Shown: one piece after another, positions 8,397-45,563 of the stretch
Layout of the letters: each line of letters begins with the position of its first letter
Position numbering within the stretch: position 1 is the stretch's first letter
NCBI GenBank assembly: GCA_003566715.1
Contig: PXCF01000035.1
Location: 1-45,563 of the forward strand
Source: Cryomorphaceae bacterium
Lineage (GTDB): Bacteria > Bacteroidota > Bacteroidia > Flavobacteriales > Schleiferiaceae
Direction of reading: 5' to 3'
Length of the DNA stretch: 45,563 bases
Program-made: the position numbers and the translations under genes
Notes under the pieces: generated by a model
What the model saw: the letters and a program-made list of their open reading frames with translations, nothing else
Databases searched by the model: none
What the model was told of the DNA's origin: nothing

Positions 8397-9110
8397 TTAT
8401 TGGACTACGTGAACACGCTTGGTGCCAAGGAGGTTTCCGTCAACATAAAGGTTAAAAAAGTAGTAACCGGAACGCAAGGCATGAATGTCAATGGTTTCGC
8501 GATTGCTGTAACCGGAGATTTGCTTTTCCATTATGGTGTTGCCAATGACATCATTTACAATCAGGCGAACGTCGTTGGAACTGATTTGGTGCATATCAAT
8601 GTAGACCATTTCTTTCGCCGGATTGGGATACACTTTTAAGCGGATTTTTTCGTTTTTCTTTTCGTGAACGGAAAAATCCGTAGTGGTAATGTAGGTAACC
8701 GTCATAGAGACCTGGTCACTGGGATTGTTTTTATCAAAAAACGTGTAGGTAATGGTTCCACTGCGCGGAACGCCATCCATTGGAGGATAAACGTGACCAT
8801 TAAAATCGTTAGAATTGGTCATGCCTGCATTGATGGTGATGGGCACCGGACTGGTATCTACTTCCGGGGCAAAACACATTCCCCAGCAAATGGCATTGGA
8901 TTGTGTCAATGTATTGGATGTATCAACGCTTCGGGTGACCATAACCTCGATGTCTTGTGAGGCATTGTTTCTAATAGACGCATTGCCATAAATATCGAGA
9001 TCGTTGGTTGCGTGGCCATAAATTACAGAATCAAATGAGGTAATCTCAAGAGATTGTGCACTCATGAACAGTGGTAATAGAAATAGAAATATAGTATAAC
9101 GTTTCATCAT
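8397..9110 (-). CDS. T9SS type A sorting-domain protein with a CWGMC motif
   Basis: 237 residues. A signal peptide (ending MSAQ) is followed by an immunoglobulin-like beta domain (about 20-145) and a C-terminal T9SS type A sorting domain (from about residue 150: KVYPNPAKEMVYIDM to RVHVVQ), so it should be exported across the outer membrane by the type IX system. The beta domain contains two cysteines in CWGMC (75 and 79) within an ICWGMCFAP stretch, which could form a disulfide. Divergent from the Omp28-like gene across 166 bases, it may belong with that cluster. No enzymatic motif was recognised. ATG at 9110 or 9107 are both possible. Confidence 0.85.
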   Translation of the reverse strand: MMKRYTIFLFLLPLFMSAQSLEITSFDSVIYGHATNDLDIYGNASIRNNASQDIEVMVTRSVDTSNTLTQSNAICWGMCFAPEVDTSPVPITINAGMTNSNDFNGHVYPPMDGVPRSGTITYTFFDKNNPSDQVSMTVTYITTTDFSVHEKKNEKIRLKVYPNPAKEMVYIDMHQISSNDVRLIVNDVIGNTIMEKQISGYSNRETIDIHALRSGYYFFNLYVDGNLLGTKRVHVVQ

Positions 9111-9140
9111 GCAATGTTATTTAATTAGTAGAGTTGTGGG

Positions 9141-9148
9141 CAAAAGTA
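9141..9148 (-). promoter_or_regulatory. Putative -7 element for the CWGMC T9SS gene
   Basis: Minus-strand TACTTTTG matches TAnnTTTG, 30 bases before the ATG at 9110; an A/T-rich run precedes it. Confidence 0.45.
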
Positions 9149-9177
9149 CAATTTTTTTTTTTAAATTGACTTGCTCA

Positions 9178-9207
9178 TTGTCTAAAAACGTGTAATTTTA
9201 CACTTTG
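9178..9207 (+). promoter_or_regulatory. Possible promoter for the Omp28/TlpA/DUF6029 unit
   Basis: TTG (9178-9180), 18 bases, then TACACTTTG (9199-9207), a -7-like element with one extra base. It lies 69 bases upstream of the ATG at 9277. Confidence 0.3.
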
Positions 9208-9276
9208 ATTAAGGTCAAAAGATATACCAAATTTCTTTTTGACTTGAAAATTTTCACAACCCATAATTCAGACTCC

Positions 9277-10743
9277 ATGAAGAAATTGACTATGTTTATT
9301 GTGCTTGTTGCGACGTCTTTTGTGCTGAGGGCTCAGGAACCGGTTAATAGCGACCTCTCTATAGAAATTGTAAAACAGTTTCCCACTTCCAACATTGCGC
9401 ACGACAGAGCCAATCCTGTATTTATTGACATTGTTAATAATGAAGAAGAGGTGATAGAATCTTTAGACATTGTCTTTGTTTTAACCGATGGAGAAAAGGT
9501 CACTGTTCAGAATAAAGCGTTTTCAGACCTCAGTATTGAAAAAGGAGAAATAAAGCGTTTAAGATTTGAAAAGATAGACGTGCCTCAATCGGAGAATGTA
9601 GAAGTTATTTTTTACCTTAAAACATTAAATGGTAAATCGTTTGTCAAAAAAGATGGTGAATCTAAATTAGAGCTGTTATCATATAACCAATCTCGTACTT
9701 CCAGCTCTGTTGACATGACGGTATTTGCGGAAATGTTTAGCAGTAGTACGTGTCCGCCATGCGCCACATGGAACACCAATGTCTACGCGCATATTTTACC
9801 ACAACTCAACTTCAATGTGCCCGGCTCAAAGCGCACCATTGCCAAGAATCAAGTGCCTATTCCAACCGCAGGCGACCCTAGCATCAACTCTTACACAGCA
9901 GGGCGTAGAGGGCTTTATAATGCCAATTCTGCCCCAAGGATGTACGTGCAAGGTGACTGGGTAGATTATTCTCAAGCCAACTTGCAAAACTGGAATGATG
10001 CGCAAGATTATTTTTCGGACATGGTTGACGATGCCGCGGCCACACCGTCTTTTGTTACCATCAGCATCGATGAGTTCACCCAAACGGCAAACGGCAACAA
10101 CATCGAGATTAACGTAAAAGGAGAAATCGAAGCCTTGGCAAACTTTGGTGGTCAAAATATCAGGCTCAACCTATTTATCCTCAACAAAGACTACACATTT
10201 AATGGTGCGCAAAATGGAGATCAAAACTACAAGCACATCACTCGCGCCATTATGCCTGACGATATTGGAATGCGGGTTTTAAATTTCAATGTAGGAACCA
10301 CAATACCGTTTGATGAAACCATTACGCTGTTAAATCAAAATGGTGTTGTAACAGCCAACACAAGTAATTTATGGAACGACCGTATTGAGATTGTGGCTAT
10401 TGTGCAAAACCGCAGCAGCAGAGAGGTGCTTCAGGCCGCCTATGCCAATGAGTTTCTCTCAAACAATTCCTTCTCAGCTTTAGAAAGCAACATCAAGCTT
10501 TATCCCAACCCGGCCAATGACTTCAGCACATTGCGTTTTACAGCCCCGCAAAGTGGCTCCGTCAACATCGAAGTTTTGTCGACCGACGGCAAGGTGGTTC
10601 AGCACATTCAAACTTCGGTCCATGCAGGAGAAGACACCCGTATAAATTTGCCAACGGAAAACCTCGCCAACGGTTTGTATATCATAAAGATTCAAAATGG
10701 CAATGAATTTGCAACAAAAAAGTGGACGGTAAAAAAGCCATAA
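9277..10743 (+). CDS. Omp28-like thioredoxin-fold protein with T9SS type A sorting domain
   Basis: 488 residues. The signal peptide is MKKLTMFIVLVATSFVLRAQ. The next 120 residues look like an all-beta domain. An Omp28-like region follows (MTVFAEMFSSSTCPPCATWN), with a thioredoxin-type CPPC at 159-162 and a conserved NSAPRMYVQG stretch. The C-terminus is a T9SS type A sorting domain (IKLYPNPANDFSTLRF to KKWTVKKP). It is expected outside the cell or on the cell surface. The ATG at 9277 was chosen because the signal peptide begins there. It is followed by a TlpA-type gene after 15 bases and a barrel gene, all on one strand. The redox role is inferred from CPPC only. Confidence 0.88.
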   Translation: MKKLTMFIVLVATSFVLRAQEPVNSDLSIEIVKQFPTSNIAHDRANPVFIDIVNNEEEVIESLDIVFVLTDGEKVTVQNKAFSDLSIEKGEIKRLRFEKIDVPQSENVEVIFYLKTLNGKSFVKKDGESKLELLSYNQSRTSSSVDMTVFAEMFSSSTCPPCATWNTNVYAHILPQLNFNVPGSKRTIAKNQVPIPTAGDPSINSYTAGRRGLYNANSAPRMYVQGDWVDYSQANLQNWNDAQDYFSDMVDDAAATPSFVTISIDEFTQTANGNNIEINVKGEIEALANFGGQNIRLNLFILNKDYTFNGAQNGDQNYKHITRAIMPDDIGMRVLNFNVGTTIPFDETITLLNQNGVVTANTSNLWNDRIEIVAIVQNRSSREVLQAAYANEFLSNNSFSALESNIKLYPNPANDFSTLRFTAPQSGSVNIEVLSTDGKVVQHIQTSVHAGEDTRINLPTENLANGLYIIKIQNGNEFATKKWTVKKP

Positions 10744-10758
10744 CCTAACCTTATAAAC

Positions 10759-11274
10759 ATGAACAAATTTTCTTACTCCTTATTAGCATTATTTTTTGTA
10801 ACCGGCATTTACGCGCAAGACGGAAATTTCAGTAAGCTTCCCAACGTGACAGTAAAAGACGTCAAGGGAAATTCCATTAGCAGCGAAGATTTTGAAAACA
10901 ACGGCAAACCCATTATCATTAGCTTCTGGGCAACCTGGTGCAAGCCCTGCATTTCGGAGCTCAACGCCATCAACGACTATTACGATGAATGGGTAGAAGA
11001 AACGGGAGTTAAGCTCATTGCCGTTTCCATTGACGATGCAAGAAACGCTGCGCGTGTTCGTCCATTTGTATTAGGTCAGGGTTGGGAGTACGAGGTCTAT
11101 CTCGACGAAAACAGCGACCTTCGCAGAGCCATGAACGTCAACAATCCTCCCCACACGTTTTTGTTAAACGGAAAAGGTGAGGTCGTATGGCAGCACAACG
11201 GTTATGTGCCCGGCGACGAAGACATCCTCTATGATTTGGTTGTAAAATTAAACCGAGGCGAGCCCTTAGAATAA
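10759..11274 (+). CDS. TlpA-family thiol-disulfide oxidoreductase
   Basis: 171 residues: signal peptide (ending TGIYAQ), then a single thioredoxin domain with the active site WATWCKPC (C61, C64) and the cis-proline segment NPPHTFLL. TlpA/ResA-type proteins reduce or exchange disulfides in the periplasm. It has no lipobox, so it should be soluble and exported. Position between an Omp28-like CPPC protein and an outer-membrane barrel suggests it serves those proteins. The CKPC dipeptide is typical of reducing TlpA relatives; direction of electron flow is not shown by the sequence. Confidence 0.93.
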   Translation: MNKFSYSLLALFFVTGIYAQDGNFSKLPNVTVKDVKGNSISSEDFENNGKPIIISFWATWCKPCISELNAINDYYDEWVEETGVKLIAVSIDDARNAARVRPFVLGQGWEYEVYLDENSDLRRAMNVNNPPHTFLLNGKGEVVWQHNGYVPGDEDILYDLVVKLNRGEPLE

Positions 11275-11295
11275 ACTTCCGAAAGAATTGTCTTT

Positions 11296-13062
11296 GTGAA
11301 ACAATATATATTGGCCGGGCTTTTGACATGTTCGGCGATATCCATCTACGCCCAGAACCCTTCCGGGACCTCACCCGACATGTCCGGAGGAGGATCTACC
11401 AATAATGGTCTATTTGGTGAAGCCGGAGAAATACACGGAAATTTTCAAAGTGACTTCCAGTTGTATTTCAGAGATCCTGAAATTGACCCAACCGGAGAGT
11501 TTTTTCCCGATGAACGGTTTCTCGCGGCGGGTTTTACAAACTTGGTTTATACCAACGGAAACTTTGAGGCCGGTTTGCGTTACGAAAATTATCAAAACAA
11601 CTTGCTTGGTTTGCCGGAGGGATTTCGCGGACAAGGCATTCCGTTTCGCTATGCTCGATTCAAAAAAGATGGCCTCGACATAACTGTTGGTAATTACTAC
11701 GAACAATTTGGCAGCGGTATGTTGCTGCGTGCATTTGAAGAGCGTGGACTTGGACTAGACAATGCTCTTGACGGGGTGCGATTGAGATACTCCCCGGTAA
11801 AAGGATTGTACATCAAGGGCGTGGTAGGTCGCCAGAGACTATACTTTGAAACGACCGAAGGTATTGTTCGTGGCATAGATGTGGAGCATAACCTCAATGA
11901 AAGCTTTAAAGGCCTTTCTCAATCAAACTGGCTCATCACTACAGGAGCAAGTTTTGTGAGTAAATATGAACAGGCCAACGATCCTTTTCTCAATCTTCCG
12001 GAAAACGTAGGGGCTTACGGAGGGCGCTTACTCTTGCAGAATGGTGGATTTGCTTGGAGTACTGAAGGCGTTTATAAAATCAACGACCCTTCGGCCGACA
12101 ATAATTACATCTTTCGATCGGGCAATGGCTTGCTGTCTACCTTGACCTACTCAAGACCTCGACTTGGCATGATGGTGGCTTTTAAAAGACTTGACGATAT
12201 GAGTTTTCGCTCACAACGAGATGCCGGCCTCATCGATGCGCAGGTTAACTTCCTTCCGCCAACAACAAAATTACACACCTATACCCTACCGGCGCTTTAC
12301 CCTTACGCCGTGCAACCCACCGGAGAAATTGCTCGTCAGGCCGAAATTACTTATACCTTTAAAAAGAAATCTCTCTTGGGCGGACGATACGGAACCACGG
12401 TAGCGGTGAATTTTAGCGATGCTTACAGCTTAGACAAAACGTTGGTAGACGAGCGACCCATAGCCGAAGGAAGTGAAGTCACCACGCCAAGTGGAACCAG
12501 CGGCTATACTGCAGAGTTTTTTACCCCTGGTCCGATTAAGTACTTTCAAGACTTTAATGTAGAGATAAAGAAAACCATCTCTCGAAAATGGAAAGCCACA
12601 CTGAGCTATTTTAATTTTGAATACAATCAAGAAGTACTCGAGAGGGGGGTAACCGACCGCGCCATTTTACTCCGTGAAGGAGGAGCTGAATCTCAGCAAT
12701 TGGTTTACATCAACGCAGCTGTTGTTGAATTGCTCTACAAAATAAAGCCACGTCACAGTTTGCGCATGGAGTTTCAGGGGATGTTTACCCAACAAGATAG
12801 AGGAGATTGGGCCATGGCGTTATTTGAGTACTCCGTCTCACCAAAGTGGTTTTTTGCCATTCAAAACAGCTACAACTACGGCAATCCCGATCCCGACAGA
12901 CGATCGGTATATCCCTTGGGAAGTGTCGGGTTTACATTGAAAACCACCCGCTTTCAATTGAATTATGGTAGACAAATGGAAGGTATTTTCTGTGTTGGCG
13001 GTATTTGCCGAGTGGTTCCTCCTTCTAACGGAATCACACTTACCGTTACGTCCAACTTTTAA
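11296..13062 (+). CDS. DUF6029-like outer-membrane beta-barrel protein
   Basis: 588 residues with signal peptide MKQYILAGLLTCSAISIYAQ. The mature part alternates amphipathic strands with Gly/Asn turns throughout (FEAGLRYENYQNN, GLDITVGNYYEQFGSGML, WKATLSYFNFEYNQ), and the last strand ends GITLTVTSNF with C-terminal Phe, as in outer-membrane barrels. The wording around GNYYEQFGSGM matches the Bacteroidetes DUF6029 family as I remember it. The start is GTG at 11296, 21 bases after the TlpA stop; no in-frame ATG precedes the signal peptide. Role unknown; the operon position suggests it works with the two preceding exported thioredoxin-fold proteins. Confidence 0.85.
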   Translation: MKQYILAGLLTCSAISIYAQNPSGTSPDMSGGGSTNNGLFGEAGEIHGNFQSDFQLYFRDPEIDPTGEFFPDERFLAAGFTNLVYTNGNFEAGLRYENYQNNLLGLPEGFRGQGIPFRYARFKKDGLDITVGNYYEQFGSGMLLRAFEERGLGLDNALDGVRLRYSPVKGLYIKGVVGRQRLYFETTEGIVRGIDVEHNLNESFKGLSQSNWLITTGASFVSKYEQANDPFLNLPENVGAYGGRLLLQNGGFAWSTEGVYKINDPSADNNYIFRSGNGLLSTLTYSRPRLGMMVAFKRLDDMSFRSQRDAGLIDAQVNFLPPTTKLHTYTLPALYPYAVQPTGEIARQAEITYTFKKKSLLGGRYGTTVAVNFSDAYSLDKTLVDERPIAEGSEVTTPSGTSGYTAEFFTPGPIKYFQDFNVEIKKTISRKWKATLSYFNFEYNQEVLERGVTDRAILLREGGAESQQLVYINAAVVELLYKIKPRHSLRMEFQGMFTQQDRGDWAMALFEYSVSPKWFFAIQNSYNYGNPDPDRRSVYPLGSVGFTLKTTRFQLNYGRQMEGIFCVGGICRVVPPSNGITLTVTSNF

Positions 13063-13341
13063 TGACTTCATCTGTTAGATACGCAATCACCATTTTACAA
13101 CGGAATTGATAAATATCCGCTTAAATGGTGTTGTAAACGACAAAAAACAAAACTCCAAAAGATCAAATTTTGTCTCTTTTCCTTAAAATAATCATTCAAT
13201 TTGTTGGTTAGCAGCGCATATTGTTTTTAATTTATATTTTATATTATTTTTAATCAATATTAAGATTTTGTCATCATTTTTATTACTTTAGCTGCCTAAT
13301 GTTTAATCTGGCAACGAAAGGGGCCAAAAAGTAAAAAAGTT
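13063..13341. other. AT-rich spacer with overlapping inverted repeats
   Basis: This gap between the barrel gene and the second Omp28-like gene is very A/T-rich from 13140 onward. At its left end CACCATTT (13088-13095) can pair with AAATGGTG (13123-13130), and TTACAAC (13095-13101) with GTTGTAA (13130-13136), in interleaved order. No convincing promoter box was found; TACTTTAG near 13286 is a weak -7 candidate. Confidence 0.4.
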
Positions 13342-15300
13342 ATGAGAAAACTATACACCTTTATTCTAGGGGGCCTTGTGTGTTCTTTAGGATACGCGCA
13401 GACACCCTCTAAATTGGTGCTGATAGAGGCTTTTTCAAATGCGTCTTGTCCGCCATGTGCAGCAAACAACCCACAGATGAATGCGCTATTGGCCAACAAT
13501 ACCAACAAAGCTGTTTCGGTAAAATTCCAAGCCAATTTTCCCGGTGCCGATCCCATGAATGCTCAGAACCCAACGGAGAACAACGGTCGCCGTACATATT
13601 ATGGCGTAAATGCCGTCCCCGGGGTAATGGTTGACGGAACAACTGGACCAATCAACTCTGGATCAATCAATCAAAACAACATCGATGCTGCTTACAACGT
13701 AGGAACAGATGTGGATTTGACGTTGAGTCACACCCTATCCTCTAACTTCGATTCAATTTCCATTAGTGTATCGGCTACCAACCTAGGATCATCGGCCATT
13801 ACCGGTAACTTGGTTCTTCACGTTGCGCTCATTGAACGTGAAATCAACTTCCCTTCGCCCCCGGGATCAACCAATGAGAAAGACTTTTACGGTGTCATGA
13901 GAAAAATGTACCCCGGCCTCAATGGAACTCCTATTAGTGGAGGACTTACCGTAGGTAATACCCAAACATTCAGCATGAACGAACTCGTTCCTAGTTATAT
14001 TTACAACTATGGAGAGATTGCCGTGGTCGCGTGGGTACAAGACGTAACCACCAAAGAGGTTTACAACGCGGCATACTCTGCACCTCAAGCACTTCCCTCA
14101 AACGCTGTAGATGCCGGTTTAGAGAATATCCCTCAAGACATTTCCGATTTTTGTGCCGAAAACTTTGAACCAAAAGTTAGATTGAAAAATGAAGGTAATT
14201 CCCCCATTACCAGCGCAGTAGTGAGCTATTCACTCAATGGTGGAGCTCCGGTAGATTTCAATTTCTCTGGAAATCTTGCCCCAAATGCGACGGAAACCAT
14301 TACCTTCCCTAACGCTACGCTTAGTGCCGGACAAACAAACACCCTTGCCTTTCAATTGACAGATGTAAACAACGGTGCATTTGATTTTAACACCATGAAC
14401 AACAGCACGCCTACCGTTGATATCCCCTTGCTGCCAAGCGGCCCTGTTGCTACACCGGTACAAGAAGACTTTGAAGGCACTAATGTTGGGCAACTGCCAA
14501 ACGGTTTTATCTTCTCCGGTGATGTTAACAATGTTATCGTTATCAACCAAACCATCGTCAATAACCTTAACCGCAGCTTAGGAGGCTTCGGTGCTTCTGA
14601 AAATTCCCTGTTCGTCGATTATTACGTAAAGCAGACAGGAGAAACTACCTTCATTACCGTTCCAAAGGTTGACTTAACCTCTTCCCCCGGTTCCATCGTG
14701 TCTTTTAACTACGCCTACGCACAATTTAATGCCGGCAGCAACGACTACCTAGCCTTTGAAGTATCTAGAGATTGTGGTGCCACCTGGGATATTTTGTGGG
14801 ATGCCGCCGGCGCTAGCTTAGCAACAGCTTCCGCCAGAACCGGACGCTTTTTCCCTGATCACTCAACCACACAGACCGACTGGCGTAAAATTGTTATTGC
14901 ATTAGCGCCTTACGGAAACGAAACAGAGCTTGTGTGCCGCTTCCGTTGTGTGTCTGACTATGGCAACTCCTTGTTTATTGATGACATCAATATTGCCAAT
15001 GCTACATCAAGCGTTGAAAGCATTGAAGAAACATCTGTTAGCAATGATTTTGTTGATGTGCGTGTGTTCCCTAACCCTGCCAACAAACAGTTTACCATCA
15101 ACATGCAAACATCTGAAGAAAAAGACATGTCTATCAGTGTTATCAATGTTCTTGGTCAAGTTGTATACAGCAGTAACGAACGCATTTTTGGTGAGCAAAA
15201 CCTTGAAATATCTACCGAAGGCATGGCTTCCGGAATGTATCAAGTAATCATTAGCAATGGCAATGATCGCATGGTTAAGAAGTTGACCATTCAGAAATAA
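13342..15300 (+). CDS. Second Omp28-like protein with jelly-roll and T9SS type A sorting domains
   Basis: 652 residues. Signal peptide MRKLYTFILGGLVCSLGYAQ, then an Omp28-like thioredoxin-fold region beginning VLIEAFSNASCPPCAANN (C36, C39) with NAVPGVMVDG, as in its neighbour. A CARDB-like beta domain occupies about 250-365, and a MAM/choice-of-anchor-J-like jelly roll about 370-560 (VQEDFEGTNVGQLPNGF, ending LFIDDINI). The T9SS type A sorting domain closes the protein (RVFPNPANKQFTINM to KKLTIQK). Two Omp28-type proteins in a 6-kb stretch suggests duplication with addition of domains. A double terminator follows directly. Confidence 0.88.
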   Translation: MRKLYTFILGGLVCSLGYAQTPSKLVLIEAFSNASCPPCAANNPQMNALLANNTNKAVSVKFQANFPGADPMNAQNPTENNGRRTYYGVNAVPGVMVDGTTGPINSGSINQNNIDAAYNVGTDVDLTLSHTLSSNFDSISISVSATNLGSSAITGNLVLHVALIEREINFPSPPGSTNEKDFYGVMRKMYPGLNGTPISGGLTVGNTQTFSMNELVPSYIYNYGEIAVVAWVQDVTTKEVYNAAYSAPQALPSNAVDAGLENIPQDISDFCAENFEPKVRLKNEGNSPITSAVVSYSLNGGAPVDFNFSGNLAPNATETITFPNATLSAGQTNTLAFQLTDVNNGAFDFNTMNNSTPTVDIPLLPSGPVATPVQEDFEGTNVGQLPNGFIFSGDVNNVIVINQTIVNNLNRSLGGFGASENSLFVDYYVKQTGETTFITVPKVDLTSSPGSIVSFNYAYAQFNAGSNDYLAFEVSRDCGATWDILWDAAGASLATASARTGRFFPDHSTTQTDWRKIVIALAPYGNETELVCRFRCVSDYGNSLFIDDINIANATSSVESIEETSVSNDFVDVRVFPNPANKQFTINMQTSEEKDMSISVINVLGQVVYSSNERIFGEQNLEISTEGMASGMYQVIISNGNDRMVKKLTIQK

Positions 15301-15402: not shown

Positions 15403-15939
15403 ATGAGAATACTTACTATTGCAACAATTGCTATAAGCCTATGCTTATTTTCTTGTGAAGGCGAAGAAGGACCACAAGGGCCGCAAGGCGAACAAGGTCT
15501 ACAAGGTGAAACGGGTGAACAAGGAGAGCCCGGCGAACCTTTTCGAACCCTCACCACCAGCTTTTCGGTAACGTCTTCCGATTGGGTTCAACAAGGCGAC
15601 TTTAATGACCCTGACTTTCGCTTCACGTTCGATCACCCATGGAGTATACTTAATGGTGATGACTTTAAAAACTATGCATTATTGGGCTATATCGACGTTG
15701 GTCAAGGTTTTCATAACCTACCTTACACCCTCACCTTTGCCAATTATTTTACGGAAGTGAATTTTGGCTGGAAAAGCGGAAATATCTTTGTAAGCTGGAA
15801 AGACAGCGACCTACAAACCATCCCTCCCGGAGGAACAGTCGACTTCACATTTATCGCTATTGAAATCAACCAAATGATTGATGGATTGGAAAATTTACCA
15901 TTTGAAGAGGTAAAAGAGATTCTGATCGATACTTACTAA
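15403..15939 (+). CDS. Lipoprotein with short collagen-like repeat
   Basis: 178 residues. Lipoprotein signal MRILTIATIAISLCLF with the lipid cysteine in FSCEGEEG. Directly after it come nine G-X-Y triplets (GEE, GPQ, GPQ, GEQ, GLQ, GET, GEQ, GEP, GEP), a collagen-like stalk rich in Glu/Gln. The remaining 130 residues form an unrecognised globular, probably beta-rich, domain. Short collagen-like stalks next to a lipid anchor occur in several Bacteroidetes lipoproteins and would trimerise and hold the head away from the membrane; that is inference. The gene stands alone between a terminator and a convergent permease gene. Confidence 0.85.
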   Translation: MRILTIATIAISLCLFSCEGEEGPQGPQGEQGLQGETGEQGEPGEPFRTLTTSFSVTSSDWVQQGDFNDPDFRFTFDHPWSILNGDDFKNYALLGYIDVGQGFHNLPYTLTFANYFTEVNFGWKSGNIFVSWKDSDLQTIPPGGTVDFTFIAIEINQMIDGLENLPFEEVKEILIDTY

Positions 15940-29040: not shown

Positions 29041-30228
29041 TTACAAGAGAGATTCGATGGCCTCTTCCAGTGCTTTACCGTGAAGATTACGGCCACGAAT
29101 GATCCCATCGCGGTCGATTAAGAAAGTTAACGGAATACCTTCAATAGCAAAATCGGTCACCACCGAAGAGTTCCATCCATTGACCTCACTCACGTGATAA
29201 GGCCAGCGCAATCCGTCGTCTTCAATAGCCTTAAGCCATTCTTCACGGGGGTTTTTTTGATTGGGCAATCCATCGATAGAGACACTAAATACGGTAAATC
29301 CGCGCTCGTTGTAACGGTTGTAAATATCTACCACACCGGGATTGGCGCGGCGACAAGGTCCACACCATGCAGCCCAAAAGTCCAATAACACCACCTTGCC
29401 TTTTAAATCGCTCAATCGGTAGGTGTTGCCATCGGCGCCGGCCATTTCTATGTCTTTGATGGGACTACCCTCTTTTAATCGCTGCGCGTTGGCTTCGCGT
29501 TGTTTTTGCAAATCCATGCCGCGCTCGTAACGCTTCAGTTGTGAGTTAAAGAAAATGGTGTGGCGACAACGTGGATATTCCTCTTCCATATTACTCAGCA
29601 ACTCTTTAAATAAATCGTAGTTGTCAACAATGGATACCAACTCTCTTTGACCCAATCTCTGAGGAAGGATAAAGAAAGCCGCAAGGTTATCGGTATTGTC
29701 TTGCAACAATTGGCGCAGGTTTTCTCTATGCGTAGCCACTTGTCGCTGATAGACTCTATCGAGTTGCTGACGGACCTGCATCAGTTCGTTGGGGTTTTCT
29801 TCGCGAACGCGTGCCATGACTTCATCCAAACTGTCAACCAAGGCAAACGACTCCATCATATAGGTGTTCATTTTCATCAATAAGTCCAAGCTACTGTTGC
29901 CTTCCAGTTCATATTGCCCCACAGGATTGGTAGCGTTGGCGTTGACCGTGATTAAATCACCGGGAAAGGCGACCAAGGGAATGCGCATGCCACTGGTAAA
30001 CTCCAACACGTAAAACTCTGGTTCTTCTATCTTGGTTTTAAAGCGAAAAAAACCGTTGTGAATCTCCAAAGTATCACTGCTCATGATATCATTGGTGTCC
30101 ATTTTGAGTACAATCACCTCATCGGCGCCATCGATGTTTCCTTTGATGATGATTTGCTCATTGGGGCCAAACATATCACATGCGGCTACCATTGCGATTA
30201 GCGCCATAGCAAAGGACCATTTTTTCAT
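29041..30228 (-). CDS. TlpA-family thioredoxin lipoprotein with N-terminal DUF4369-like domain
   Basis: 395 residues from ATG at 30228 (the frame extends to 30267, but the lipoprotein signal begins here). MKKWSFAMALIAMVAAC places the lipid cysteine at 17. Residues about 25-125 resemble DUF4369 (IIIKGNIDGADEVIVLKM). A helical linker follows, then a thioredoxin domain with WAAWCGPC near residue 285 and the cis-proline in EGIPLTFLI. Proteins of this build are common in Bacteroidetes and handle disulfides at the periplasmic face. It lies between gatB (82 bases upstream) and the helicase gene. Confidence 0.93.
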   Translation of the reverse strand: MKKWSFAMALIAMVAACDMFGPNEQIIIKGNIDGADEVIVLKMDTNDIMSSDTLEIHNGFFRFKTKIEEPEFYVLEFTSGMRIPLVAFPGDLITVNANATNPVGQYELEGNSSLDLLMKMNTYMMESFALVDSLDEVMARVREENPNELMQVRQQLDRVYQRQVATHRENLRQLLQDNTDNLAAFFILPQRLGQRELVSIVDNYDLFKELLSNMEEEYPRCRHTIFFNSQLKRYERGMDLQKQREANAQRLKEGSPIKDIEMAGADGNTYRLSDLKGKVVLLDFWAAWCGPCRRANPGVVDIYNRYNERGFTVFSVSIDGLPNQKNPREEWLKAIEDDGLRWPYHVSEVNGWNSSVVTDFAIEGIPLTFLIDRDGIIRGRNLHGKALEEAIESLL

Positions 30229-30309
30229 CTCGGATAGTATGCGGTTGTTATTGGTTGTGTGTAGCATATGACTAAAACAATGTGTTAATGATTAAATGTT
30301 TGAGAAGAA

Positions 30310-40530: not shown

Positions 40531-41460
40531 CTACTGAATTTGCAACTTTGTCGTTGAAATCCCCCCACTGGTACTTTCTATCCTCATCACATACATCCCG
40601 GATGCAAAGCCACTGATACTTAAAGTCACTTCCTCATCTTTGTCATTGTTTTGCTGATGCAACAAGACATTTCCGCGAAGATCATACAATTTTACCGACT
40701 GAATGGGGTGTGATTTTGAACGAATAAAAACGTCATCTACTGCCGGATTGGGGAATATATCATAAGAGGCTTTTTCAAATGATTCTACGCCAATGGTTGA
40801 ACCAACCCAACACGTATCGCCCCAACCAGCGCCTTGGTATAATTGAGTCCCTGATTTCCAAACACATAGTGAGTATGCAAGAATACCTTCAAGTGCTACC
40901 ATATTTATTCCCCTCTCCGACCCTAAACCTTCTATCCAAACAATAGGCATATAATTGATGCATGCCCAATGAACACCCTGTGTAATATGTTGCAAGTGTA
41001 TTTCTTTTCTCGGGGTTCCTTCTAAATCTATAAAGGTATCAACTTGATTAACAATATAACTTTGAAGTGAATCACACAATGTAGACGTTTCTCTATTATT
41101 AGCAAAAACAGTCACCGTATCACCGGCCATTACTGAATAATCATACCACAGGTATTCTAAAGAGTCAACAAAAATCCAGACCTTGCCATTAATGGTATCT
41201 TCACGAGCCAGTATGGGGTTGCCAATCGGATCGCTACTAGGCCAATTTCCCGGTAAAAGCACTCCGTCTAGCTTGTAGTAGGTAGTACCATTGATGAGCG
41301 AATCTGCTCCGGACATAGAGATGGAGTCTGAAAATCCGCCGGCAGTATGGTAACCAAAATGCTGTGTCCAAACTTTTCCCGGTTCCAACATGGGTTTGTA
41401 TTGGCCTTTTAGCACAAACTGAGAAAATAGGATGCTGAGGAGAATTATGGTTTTATTCAT
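40531..41460 (-). CDS. T9SS type A sorting-domain protein of unknown function
   Basis: 309 residues from ATG at 41460 (MNKTIILLSILFSQFVLKGQ, signal peptide); the codon two residues earlier at 41466 is possible. The body (about 20-225) is beta-rich with WTQHFGYHTAGGFSDSISM, several Asp/Ser stretches and a WVSYxx-like CVWKSGTQLYQGAGWGDTCW end; a domain of this form precedes many Bacteroidetes sorting signals. The C-terminal sorting domain begins YDIFPNPAVDDVFIRS and ends ISTTKLQIQ. Exported to the surface or medium by T9SS. Function unknown. Confidence 0.85.
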   Translation of the reverse strand: MNKTIILLSILFSQFVLKGQYKPMLEPGKVWTQHFGYHTAGGFSDSISMSGADSLINGTTYYKLDGVLLPGNWPSSDPIGNPILAREDTINGKVWIFVDSLEYLWYDYSVMAGDTVTVFANNRETSTLCDSLQSYIVNQVDTFIDLEGTPRKEIHLQHITQGVHWACINYMPIVWIEGLGSERGINMVALEGILAYSLCVWKSGTQLYQGAGWGDTCWVGSTIGVESFEKASYDIFPNPAVDDVFIRSKSHPIQSVKLYDLRGNVLLHQQNNDKDEEVTLSISGFASGMYVMRIESTSGGISTTKLQIQ

Positions 41461-41611
41461 AGCCACTTTTTGTTTATTGCTTATTGACTTACCTGCTTTT
41501 GAGGAATCAAGGCTCTGTCCCTATTTGGCGCAAACATTAGGGCAATATTTTTTAAACGATGTCTCAAAGATGGTTTATCTGAAGGAGAATATGCTGCATG
41601 TCCGATGGTGC

Positions 41612-43261
41612 TTACTTCCTATTCGCCACCGTCATCTTTTGCTGCTCCACTCTTCCATTGAGCGGATATTCTAAACGAACAACGTAATTACCCGGCGCGA
41701 GTCCTGCCTGACTGACCAAATGCTCTCCATGACCACGCTCCTCAATCACACAAACGCCTAGCATGTTATAGACGCGCAATACATGGGGTTCACCGGTACC
41801 AACGGCGGTAAAAGTACCGTTGTTGGGGTTGGGGTAAATGCGCAGACTGATGGGTGATTGGTCTTCCATGTGGGTTGAAAATACCGGACAGTCGTCGGAA
41901 TGAATAACAAAGGTGTAATGCGGGGCGACGTCAAAACCACATTCGTTGATCAGAGTATTGTTATCGGTGCCGGTGCGAATGCTTGCAAGGAAATCGCCAT
42001 TGCCGGGCAGAGGATTGTGGAGCATCAATGTTATGTGATCGGTAGTTTGTGGAGGGGTGCAATTAGGAATGGCCGCTGATATGGGTACCAGAACAGAGTC
42101 GGGTGATAAAATTCGGAAATCGCTGCCATCCGGTGCAATGGTGTTACAGCGGATGTTGTTTTCAAAATACAAATCAATGGAGTTTGATAGGCAGTTGTAT
42201 GAAACCCTGTGCAAAGAAACCTCGGCTGAAGAACCGGATCCGGCAACGGTATCTGCATTTGGTATCAGCAAGACATCTTCCATGCGGTTAAGAATACTTG
42301 CCGGGTAGTTTTGCTTGGGGTGGTGGTTGTTTGACAAATCAGGCCCATCAATTACATTAGGACGGCATGAGCCTCCAATGGACGCCCAGCCTTCTACGTA
42401 GCTGCTGCCCACTTTTACATAGGCATTTAACTGGTTAACCCAGCGGTATTCTATCACTTCAAATGCGTAGATGAAGTTTCCGGAGGCACTTGTCGATTTA
42501 AAAAGAATTTCTCCGGTCTGTTGATCAATGGTAGTGCCCGGTAATTCAGCAGGAAAGGGTTGATCAAACGTGTAAGGGGGATCATAGCTCACGTTAAAAG
42601 CTGTGTCGCAACTGTTGCCATTAGAAACGTAATCAAAGGCATATTGTAAGGAATCTCCATCGGGTTCAATGGCGTAGTGGTTGATGCTGACATTTTGACT
42701 TTGGCACAAGTTGATGACGGCTTCATTAAAAACAAATTGCGGAGAGGTGTTTTCACCGCGTGTGTTGTTTAAGAGTGCTTCCAATCTGTTGGTAATTCCG
42801 GTTCCTCCAAACACATTTGCAAAGTTTGCATATCCGACACGACAGCATACCATGGCGTATTTGAATGAAAAATCGGAGCATGTACCTGGAAGTTCAACAA
42901 ACCCCTCCAACTTATGCTCAAAGAAGTCCGTGGTGTTGGGGTTAAGGGTAACACAATTTGCATTTTCTCCCACCGCTGTTCCGTTTGGCGGATATCCGGG
43001 AGCGAGGCCAATAGTTACTGTCTGATTAGGAAAGCAAGAAGAGGTGATGCACACCGTAGGGCCAAGAACATTGTTGAAAGTTGTATACCGAGTAGTTCGG
43101 TACAAGGTAATATTGATTTTGTAATGATGGGGTATTCCCGATGTATCTCCAATGTATTCGTAAGACATGGTGCCGCCAACCAAGTGAGAGGCATTTAAAG
43201 GGGAGTCAAAATGGCTCAAAAATATCAATAAAACAACGGCGTATTTAATCAGCGCTTTCAT
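41612..43261 (-). CDS. Large T9SS cargo of the ASHLVGG adhesin/gliding type
   Basis: 549 residues. Signal peptide ending LNA, then SHLVGGTMSYEYIG at the mature N-terminus; this opening (ASH-[IL]-VGG-x-[IM]-x-Y) is characteristic of long Bacteroidetes cell-surface proteins, many annotated as gliding-motility associated. A cysteine-rich beta-sandwich-like region (about 50-330) includes CFPNQTVTIGLAPGYPP, MVCCRVGYANF and EPDGDSLQYAFDYVS. The last 80 residues form a T9SS type A sorting domain (LRIYPNPNNGTFTAVG to QQKMTVANRK). Length is short for the group, which often exceeds 1000 residues. No evidence here for motility itself. Confidence 0.88.
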   Translation of the reverse strand: MKALIKYAVVLLIFLSHFDSPLNASHLVGGTMSYEYIGDTSGIPHHYKINITLYRTTRYTTFNNVLGPTVCITSSCFPNQTVTIGLAPGYPPNGTAVGENANCVTLNPNTTDFFEHKLEGFVELPGTCSDFSFKYAMVCCRVGYANFANVFGGTGITNRLEALLNNTRGENTSPQFVFNEAVINLCQSQNVSINHYAIEPDGDSLQYAFDYVSNGNSCDTAFNVSYDPPYTFDQPFPAELPGTTIDQQTGEILFKSTSASGNFIYAFEVIEYRWVNQLNAYVKVGSSYVEGWASIGGSCRPNVIDGPDLSNNHHPKQNYPASILNRMEDVLLIPNADTVAGSGSSAEVSLHRVSYNCLSNSIDLYFENNIRCNTIAPDGSDFRILSPDSVLVPISAAIPNCTPPQTTDHITLMLHNPLPGNGDFLASIRTGTDNNTLINECGFDVAPHYTFVIHSDDCPVFSTHMEDQSPISLRIYPNPNNGTFTAVGTGEPHVLRVYNMLGVCVIEERGHGEHLVSQAGLAPGNYVVRLEYPLNGRVEQQKMTVANRK

Positions 43262-44199: not shown

Positions 44200-45563
44200 A
44201 TGAAACAATCATTATTCTTGTTATTGATAAGCTTAAGTGCTTCATATGTGTTTGCTCAAATCACCCCAAACCCCAGAGGCTTTACTTCAATGAACCTTGG
44301 AAACACACAAGCAGTTGATGTGGTTGAGGTAGATGATGGATATGTGACTTCTGTAACGTCTGGTGCAAATTCTATAAGTTCTGCCACTTATCTTGTGAAA
44401 TTTGACTTCGACCTGAATTTTGTAGACTCGGTTATGTTACCTCATAACTTTACTCATATTACCCAATCTCCAACCTTAAGAATAATTGGAGACAGCATTT
44501 ATGCACAATATTTTTATAATACACCAAATTTGCCAATATTCTATGAAGAACTTATCAACTTTGATTTCGACTTAAATCGCGGGAATATATATAAACTCCC
44601 AACAGATTCGTTTGGACTCACCTTCCTGCTTACACCAAAAACAGATTCAACCTTTATTGCAGCGGGCACTAAAGCAGTAACATTTGACCAAATAGCGGTT
44701 TTTGAATTTGACTTAACAGGCAACATTATAAACCAGACAGTATTTGATGATACCAATTACGCACCTTTTGCATTTTCGCTTTCAATCATGCCGTTAGAAA
44801 ACAATCGCGTATTTGTAACTACCATTACATCTTCATATATACTAAATCTTTCTACAAATAATATTGATGAAATCATAAGTGATACGCTCATTTCTGAACT
44901 AAATTCATTTTTTCGTATAGAAATAATACATGGTTTAAATACTAAAAACTTCGGAATTTACAGCCTTACCCCACATTCTCCAATGCACCTTGTTGAAGTT
45001 AACAATGACGGTTCGATGATAGAGATTTTCCCGCTTGATTCAACAATGATAATTCCTCTACAAGGTGATTCGACTTATAGTCATGGTCTTATAAGAGGAT
45101 TGGATGAAGACTTAGATGGTAATATATACGCAATTTCAAGGTATGAGAGAAGAAAAAGTTTTGACTGGCGCCCCCAAAATGACTCACTCTTTGGGTCCAT
45201 TTTCGTTCATAAGTTTAATGCTGATACCAGAGAAATACTTTGGAAAAGAGAAATCAATATTTACGAGATTAAAGGCGGTAGCCTTCCTCCTTTTGCTACA
45301 AGCATTCATGCAACGTCAGACGGAGGATGTGTTGGCGTTTTTAATTCTAACAGCCTAGACTCTCTAAGAAACCCCAGCGGAACCGTAGGCTTTATTTTTA
45401 AACTCGGCCCCAACGGCGAACTCCTATCCCAAACCTCCTTCAAAGCGCCAAAGCCCCAAATAAGCATTTACCCCAATCCGGCAAACGAATACCTACACAT
45501 CAACAGCCATCAAACAGCCGTAGATATTACCATCAGCGATGTAAGTGGACGGGTGGTTTATCA
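44200..45563 (+). CDS. T9SS type A sorting-domain protein, likely beta-propeller-like (C-terminus beyond window)
   Basis: ATG at 44200 opens a frame that reaches the right edge: 454 residues visible. Signal peptide MKQSLFLLLISLSASYVFAQ. The body has repeated strands of the form V-x-x-x-D-D-G-Y and FDFDLN-x-x (KFDFDLNFVDSV, NFDFDLNRGN, EFDLTGNI), and DEDLDGNIYAIS, HATSDGGCVGVF; these recall secreted WD/Kelch-like or PQQ-like propellers of Bacteroidetes. At the end ISIYPNPANEYLHINS begins the T9SS type A sorting domain, with about 50 residues missing. Function unknown. Confidence 0.88.
   Translation, partial: MKQSLFLLLISLSASYVFAQITPNPRGFTSMNLGNTQAVDVVEVDDGYVTSVTSGANSISSATYLVKFDFDLNFVDSVMLPHNFTHITQSPTLRIIGDSIYAQYFYNTPNLPIFYEELINFDFDLNRGNIYKLPTDSFGLTFLLTPKTDSTFIAAGTKAVTFDQIAVFEFDLTGNIINQTVFDDTNYAPFAFSLSIMPLENNRVFVTTITSSYILNLSTNNIDEIISDTLISELNSFFRIEIIHGLNTKNFGIYSLTPHSPMHLVEVNNDGSMIEIFPLDSTMIIPLQGDSTYSHGLIRGLDEDLDGNIYAISRYERRKSFDWRPQNDSLFGSIFVHKFNADTREILWKREINIYEIKGGSLPPFATSIHATSDGGCVGVFNSNSLDSLRNPSGTVGFIFKLGPNGELLSQTSFKAPKPQISIYPNPANEYLHINSHQTAVDITISDVSGRVVY

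Follow-up and report, generated by a model that had tools for sequence, protein, structure and literature searches.

How disulfide bonds are made, kept and read at the surface of Bacteroidota, where many proteins are displayed through the type IX secretion system (T9SS), is a matter left unsettled in the literature consulted, which here and below was accessible in part. The question is raised by a group of genes in a 45,563-nucleotide stretch of DNA (contig PXCF01000035.1, assembly GCA_003566715.1; hereafter the window), which forms part of the 2.46 Mb genome of a Cryomorphaceae bacterium. Five consecutive open reading frames (ORFs) at 8397-15300, encoding 237, 512, 171, 588 and 652 amino acids in that order, had been described in a first-pass annotation as exported proteins carrying CWGMC, CPPC, CKPC and CPPC motifs, and both the ORFs and the motifs are present as described. 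They comprise a homologue of the T9SS regulator PorA, two Omp28-like proteins, a TlpA-type thioredoxin and an outer-membrane barrel of the DUF6029 family, as set out in the lines below. The answer favoured here, tentatively and at somewhat less than even chances, is that the cluster constitutes an outer-membrane thiol-disulfide module linked to the T9SS, in which a DUF6029 pore has TlpA beneath it and Omp28 on its outer side.

8397 to 9107, minus strand: PorA-like protein with an Ig-like N-terminal domain carrying CWGMC and a T9SS tail (Pfam, profile and fold model)
9111 to 9276, no strand: intergenic stretch from which the PorA-like gene and the operon diverge, possibly a shared control region (placed from the gene starts)
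9277 to 10743, plus strand: Omp28-like protein (gene 2) with CPPC and a T9SS tail, listed from TTG 9205 (Pfam, NCBIfam and relatives)
10759 to 11274, plus strand: exported TlpA/ResA-type thioredoxin with CKPC (AhpC-TSA, 1.4e-20; WCxPC)
11296 to 13062, plus strand: DUF6029 outer-membrane barrel (PF19494, 4.7e-171; fold model)
12991 to 13008, plus strand: codons of the barrel cysteine pair, C566 to C571 (CVGGIC), in the last hairpin (invariant in aligned relatives)
13342 to 15300, plus strand: second Omp28 protein (gene 5) with CPPC and a T9SS tail (PF11551, 1.3e-11)

A comparison of gene order in relatives has revealed that this arrangement recurs across the phylum. PF19494 was sought in a phylum sample of 395 genomes and found in 98; neighbourhoods of up to 8 kb on either side were taken, giving 98 loci from all 97 other positive genomes and, with the window, 99. 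A family set consisted of 40 loci fetched from 80 other positive genomes and a named-genome set of 80 loci out of at least 572 confirmed; the three sets overlap and the same genomes can recur. Neighbours were labelled with profiles iterated from the window proteins under strict inclusion, and one weak match that is probably not DUF6029 (L129, genome G227) was kept in the denominators. In 71 of the 99 phylum loci, 98 of which have an ORF in that place, the gene immediately before DUF6029 on its strand encodes TlpA; of 849 ORF slots at a distance of three to seven genes, 15 do so. The first-pass reading is thus not refuted by the conditions that it had set itself. The same position is held by TlpA in 34/40 loci of the family and 66/80 of the named genomes. 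The triplet of TlpA, DUF6029 and an Omp28-slot partner is found in 51/99 phylum, 31/40 family and 63/80 named-genome loci; a TlpA-labelled protein behind the barrel was scored as such a partner, which matters for the lineage f25 discussed below. Within the window's own family DUF6029 is present in 81 of 88 genomes, or 53 of 56 when those of good quality are counted, and assemblies of 1.6-1.8 Mb with 96-98 percent completeness are among those that have it. Of the 40 family loci, 31 have a tailed Omp28 at the second gene upstream, and 32 a divergent PorA-like gene at the second or third. In another order, that of G394, DUF6029 occurs in 67 of 119 genomes, and of the best-scoring 30 of these 67, 28 show TlpA before the barrel and 24 show Omp28 after it. 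Among the matches listed, the named-genome loci, mostly from metagenome-assembled genomes (MAGs), include Hymenobacter, Lentimicrobium, Fluviicola, Vicingaceae, Bacteroidales and Chlorobiota, and the closest named relatives of the window barrel are Cryomorphaceae and Schleiferiaceae MAGs at 80 and 61 percent (L234, L180). The Hymenobacter isolates L202 and L233 have the triplet, and no PorA-like gene was seen next to it; L254, a Fluviicola MAG, carries all five labels, though its tailed protein upstream is labelled TlpA-like. One genome, G180, has two DUF6029 genes (L059, L061), and a TlpA-like and an Omp28-like gene stand next to each of the two.

That common exported proteins have simply come to lie together by chance was considered in this connection. 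The genome contains 78 T9SS tail matches at E 0.001, which makes tailed neighbours common, and three of them side by side would on their own prove little. The enrichment of TlpA upstream of DUF6029, together with the fusion of the two genes described next, has nevertheless led to the rejection of chance clustering, which is hardly credible. Candidates for further dedicated partners were likewise sought in the flanks of L183, L058 and L224 and rejected; RuvA, RuvB, QueG, a PEP-utilising enzyme, a sugar-phosphate isomerase, NADH dehydrogenase and phosphomannose isomerase are housekeeping proteins and differ between lineages.

The TlpA protein matches Pfam AhpC-TSA (1.4e-20, 74 bits for a cut-off of 26) and remains under the cut-off of the ResA subfamily NF002854 (85.2 bits for 170), with a WCxPC motif that is invariant in 20 of 20 aligned relatives. 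In both genomes of one genus, TlpA and DUF6029 are encoded by a single open frame free of internal stops, the two fusions being 67 percent identical. The barrel part of the fusion shows no signal peptide of its own, which indicates that the TlpA domain must enter the envelope together with the barrel; as the N-terminal part of the barrel protein, it is expected to be located in the periplasm. Elsewhere in the window, a larger protein at 29041-30267 on the minus strand has a TlpA-like part with 31 percent identity.

The barrel itself, described earlier as DUF6029-like, matches PF19494 over its full length (E 4.7e-171, 570.5 bits for a cut-off of 27, positions 1-538 of 538), and this was its sole Pfam match at 0.1. 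A conserved cysteine pair, C566 and C571, had been overlooked. In an AlphaFold2 model built from 57 alignment rows (predicted local distance difference test, pLDDT, 90.2; predicted template modelling score, pTM, 0.84), about 22-24 long strands were counted from the DSSP-predicted strands, and the two cysteines occupy two short strands (563-567 and 570-574) between the last two long ones. If both ends of the barrel are periplasmic, this cysteine hairpin would be placed at the outer end or folded into the lumen. The pair is invariant in 57/57 aligned relatives, and a CxxGxC motif is found in the last 60 residues of 96/99, 40/40 and 80/80 DUF6029 ORFs in the phylum, family and named-genome sets, or 216/219 with overlap; of the three ORFs lacking it, one has a broken frame, one is truncated and one is probably not DUF6029.

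Structural comparisons of this model bear on a different function, in which DUF6029 would be a translocation or assembly pore giving PorA-like and Omp28 proteins a way to the surface that bypasses the T9SS translocon, with TlpA keeping the passengers reduced and export-competent. The usher FimD is the best match in a VIA search (3ohn_A, Z 17.8, 378 residues aligned, root-mean-square deviation (rmsd) 4.5) and the usher PapC follows closely (17.1), but these tie with the OprD-type porin OccK3 (3szv, 17.2), and identities of 7-12 percent are typical of barrels generally; the fold matches would therefore reflect a shared barrel type rather than a shared function. The lack of any usher family match to the barrel, the T9SS tails on window proteins 1, 2 and 5, and the failure to find PorA homologues at E 1e-6 in 51 of the 98 DUF6029 genomes also speak against such a pore, which is considered unlikely. 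The Mtr complex (6r2q_B) appeared at Foldseek rank 37, outside the 50 VIA rows, and nothing has been drawn from it. DUF6029 came up in a single paper of the literature searched, a 2022 study in which some Wzi-like barrel hits have been reported to show HHpred similarity to DUF6029 in a polysaccharide-barrel context, in the accessible part of that study (PMC9603273). A role in polysaccharide export was set aside, with no search aimed at polysaccharide genes.

Of the two proteins annotated as Omp28-like, gene 5 lies above the curated cut-off of PF11551 (1.3e-11, 45.1 bits for 34.9), whereas gene 2 gave no match to Pfam Omp28 at 0.1 and its best Omp28-type match, NCBIfam Omp28_seleno (NF045500), stays well below the cut-off at 28.7 bits for 200. 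Gene 2 resembles the gene two positions upstream of the barrel (-2) in the family at 28-85 percent over about 240-270 amino acids. Gene 5 also resembles this upstream gene (about 42 percent over 565 amino acids). In most family relatives, the gene after the barrel encodes a tail-less Omp28, mostly with a lipobox (31/40); in the window that slot is held by a T9SS-tailed Omp28, as it is in three genus mates (L140, L142 and L143; in a fourth, L141, the contig ends first), and the window's own genome has a lipoprotein-like Omp28 on another contig. Since a T9SS-anchored form can occupy the slot after the barrel, it is suggested that Omp28 works at the outer face. By a permissive motif, the CxxC is kept in 137/137 tail-less Omp28 proteins directly after the barrel and in 107/109 tailed ones. 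An alignment of 29 tail-less proteins shows an invariant histidine (H84) besides the CxxC in all 29, and a lipid-attachment-like cysteine is also kept.

The PorA-like protein at the left of the cluster has a Pfam Por_Secre_tail (1.3e-11, 45.1 bits for a cut-off of 27), with TIGR04183 just under its cut-off (22.9 for 23). Searched by profile against the PDB, its N-terminal domain had a sole match, the PorA N-terminal domain 6kjk (E 1.1e-5), with CWGxC aligned over CFGQC. The fold model (pLDDT 89.2) gave the same protein as the top VIA row (Z 11.9, rmsd 2.8, 120 of 134 residues), and with the Ig-like domain alone the next row has Z 10.1; in Foldseek, PorA-N stands at rank 22, behind proteins that mostly align over both domains. 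The cysteines C75 and C79 (CWGMC, codons 8874-8888) are both aligned in 101/101 profile-selected relatives, with a spacing of three residues in the window protein and of three, four or more in the others. On profile and model evidence, gene 1, a single-copy gene in this genome, is a homologue of PorA, and the set is consequently less unknown than it seemed in the first-pass annotation, whose author knew of no corresponding pathway. It has been reported that deletion of porA lowers T9SS expression and that PorA is exposed on the surface even without the T9SS translocon (PMC7712824). PorA has also been found together with PorV and Sov (PMC8754138), and its binding by PorV appears in a further study (PMC5562754).

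Co-occurrence across the 395 genomes, counted by eye, links the barrel to both the secretion system and PorA. SprA was detected in 304 genomes, comprising 97 of the 98 with DUF6029 (G230 being the one without) and 207 of the 297 others (Fisher 7.6e-12), so that DUF6029 is nearly restricted to T9SS genomes in this sample. PorA homologues were counted at E 1e-6 or better, which retains 52 of the 93 genomes matching at 0.001, because the weaker rows mostly extend no further than the first 40-80 positions; 47 of the 98 genomes with DUF6029 have one, compared with 5 of the 297 others (Fisher 1e-27). Neither Fisher value is corrected for shared ancestry, and in the PorA search the nine best candidates per genome were scored with a profile from block-linked proteins, which favours such lineages. 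Some of the homologues are located on contigs other than that of the barrel. Those in genomes without a DUF6029 match belong to G049, G186, G146, G156 and G202.

The link to PorA opens the possibility that the module carries a signal from PorA at the surface to PorXY-SigP, by which T9SS genes are controlled, and that the cysteine pairs are either structural or are themselves what is sensed. Apart from the homology of protein 1, this would agree with Yukitake et al., who expect further factors mediating between surface PorA and the inner-membrane protein PorY (PMC7712824), and with Porphyromonas gingivalis, in which PG2172 (PorA) and PG2173 (an Omp28 lipoprotein) have neighbouring locus tags. 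The core triplet occurs without PorA, however, and this signalling role is regarded as quite improbable.

A further line of evidence comes from the lineage f25 of the phylum sample, where Omp28 is replaced behind the barrel by thioredoxin-like proteins, one or two per locus and mostly with CPHC (L083 and L087, for example). CPHC is the motif of DsbA. In L083 both proteins after the barrel are AhpC-TSA members and the second carries a T9SS tail. The slot thus changes family and stays of the redox type, which is the strongest pointer to redox chemistry as the purpose of the block. In the same lineage, a DtxR-type iron-dependent repressor with a FeoA domain, TonB receptors, imelysin, HTTM and SpoIIE were identified by Pfam near the block (within about 9 kb in L083; also L123 and L091), along with a further thioredoxin-like protein, and the repressor cluster lies within seven genes at 13 loci. 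The repressor, the receptors and imelysin favour a metal link in f25, and raise the alternative that the cluster handles surface metal or haem, with the CxxC and histidine of Omp28 as a binding site and TlpA as its reductant. The retention of H84 in all aligned relatives is in keeping with this, as is the binding of hemin by the P. gingivalis protein HBP35; yet that binding is independent of the CxxC of HBP35 (PMC2907840), and the flanks scanned outside f25 (L183, L058, L224 and L049 alone) contain housekeeping or T9SS-tailed proteins and no metal genes. A metal or haem function appears rather unlikely.

With regard to the organization of the locus, the single five-gene operon proposed in the first-pass annotation does not hold, as gene 1 is encoded on the minus strand and, being divergent from the other four, is not part of it. 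The predicted operon consists of gene 2, TlpA and DUF6029, with gaps of 15 and 21 bases. A 279-base AT-rich gap precedes gene 5, which may have its own promoter; a promoter scan at the locus found no more sites than in shuffles. The ORF list starts gene 2 at TTG 9205, but its signal peptide, read by eye, begins at ATG 9277, 24 codons on. The assignments by Pfam of T9SS tails to proteins 1, 2 and 5, AhpC-TSA to protein 3 and DUF6029 to protein 4 agree with those made previously. Directly behind the cluster, a putative lipoprotein with a short collagen-like Gly-X-Y stretch is encoded at 15403-15939 on the plus strand (Pfam Collagen 22.7 bits, below the cut-off), and two genus mates, L140 and L143, have an ORF similar in length and position. 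Further T9SS tail matches, one of them below the cut-off, occur at 40531-43261 on the minus strand and at the right end of the window at 45466.

In the thiol-disulfide module favoured here, TlpA would act as a periplasmic thioredoxin at the inner mouth of the DUF6029 pore, and the thioredoxin-like Omp28 proteins would be placed on the outer-membrane or surface side, where a T9SS tail would retain them in this genus and probably a lipid anchor in most relatives, with other thioredoxin-like proteins taking over the Omp28 slot in f25. The module may set the redox state of cysteine pairs in surface proteins, including the pair in the PorA-like protein and that in the barrel's CVGGxC hairpin. Built on the gene order, the TlpA-barrel fusion, the cysteine pairs, the near-confinement of the barrel to T9SS genomes in the sample and the PorA homology, this proposal would entail an exchange of disulfides among the partners, a route through the pore and a role for TlpA as reductant. 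The earlier suggestion of a dedicated disulfide system gains partial support from the neighbourhood, the fusion, the cysteine pairs, the slot swap in f25 and the activity of HBP35 described below, and has lost its five-gene operon.

Several points weigh against the proposal. The triplet is incomplete in 48 of the 99 phylum loci, of which 20 have no partner after the barrel, 19 no TlpA and nine neither, and the counts of TlpA and Omp28 may be generous, since the iterated window profiles cross-match. The likeness between the Omp28 and TlpA profiles is modest (hhalign probability 53.4, E 1.3e-4), and the order of strands in the barrel suggests that C566 and C571 lie at the extracellular end, away from TlpA. 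The cysteines of the surface proteins may be purely structural, the iron-related neighbours in f25 fit another function, and the 51 DUF6029 genomes without a PorA homologue at the threshold used, together with the five homologues in genomes without DUF6029, loosen the connection to PorA. A more far-reaching version, in which reducing equivalents cross the outer membrane from TlpA docked under a wide DUF6029 pore to surface Omp28, controlling PorA and linking surface redox to T9SS expression, is doubtful. A search of the literature, mostly without subscription papers, returned nothing joining DUF6029 or TlpA with PorA or Omp28 in Bacteroidota. The study of PorA leaves two questions, namely by what route PorA arrives at the surface when the T9SS translocon is missing and how surface PorA is linked to the inner-membrane kinase PorY (PMC7712824). 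For both, named candidates are provided by a conserved block in which PorA homologues are often accompanied by an exported thioredoxin, a pore not studied so far and a further thioredoxin-like protein.

The components can be compared with several known systems. The usher pores FimD and PapC rank near the top of the fold matches to the barrel model, but differ in the absence of an usher sequence match and in the tie with OprD-type porins. TlpA/ResA thiol-disulfide oxidoreductases share the WCxPC motif and export with the window protein, which is distinguished by its score under the ResA subfamily cut-off and by its genomic tie, in one genus a fusion, to an outer-membrane barrel. A profile of the tail-less Omp28 proteins of 28 relatives and of the copy from this genome matches the P. 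gingivalis structure 2r2c (E 2.2e-30), which we take to be PG2173, the protein adjoining porA by locus tag; the two Omp28-like proteins of the window differ from it in being T9SS-tailed, the lipoprotein-like copy being encoded elsewhere in the genome. The next tag, PG2174, a possible candidate for DUF6029 in P. gingivalis, appears in print as an uncharacterised vesicle protein (PMC4335976), the tag numbers being the sole hint of adjacency. The trypsin-recruiting proteins of Paraprevotella (PMC9477747) were also considered and set aside as a different T9SS locus. PorA of P. gingivalis (PGN_0123/PG2172) is 15 percent identical to the window protein over 120 aligned residues; the two have in common the Ig-like N-terminal domain, a cysteine pair in the same place, the T9SS tail and a similar length (PMC7712824). 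HBP35 (PGN_0659, PDB 5y1a) has no barrel neighbour described in the accessible part of PMC2907840, but it is likewise a T9SS cargo with a thioredoxin motif, matches the Omp28 profile (E 2.1e-7) and has been reported to show thioredoxin activity, measured as insulin reduction, through its two cysteines (PMC2907840).

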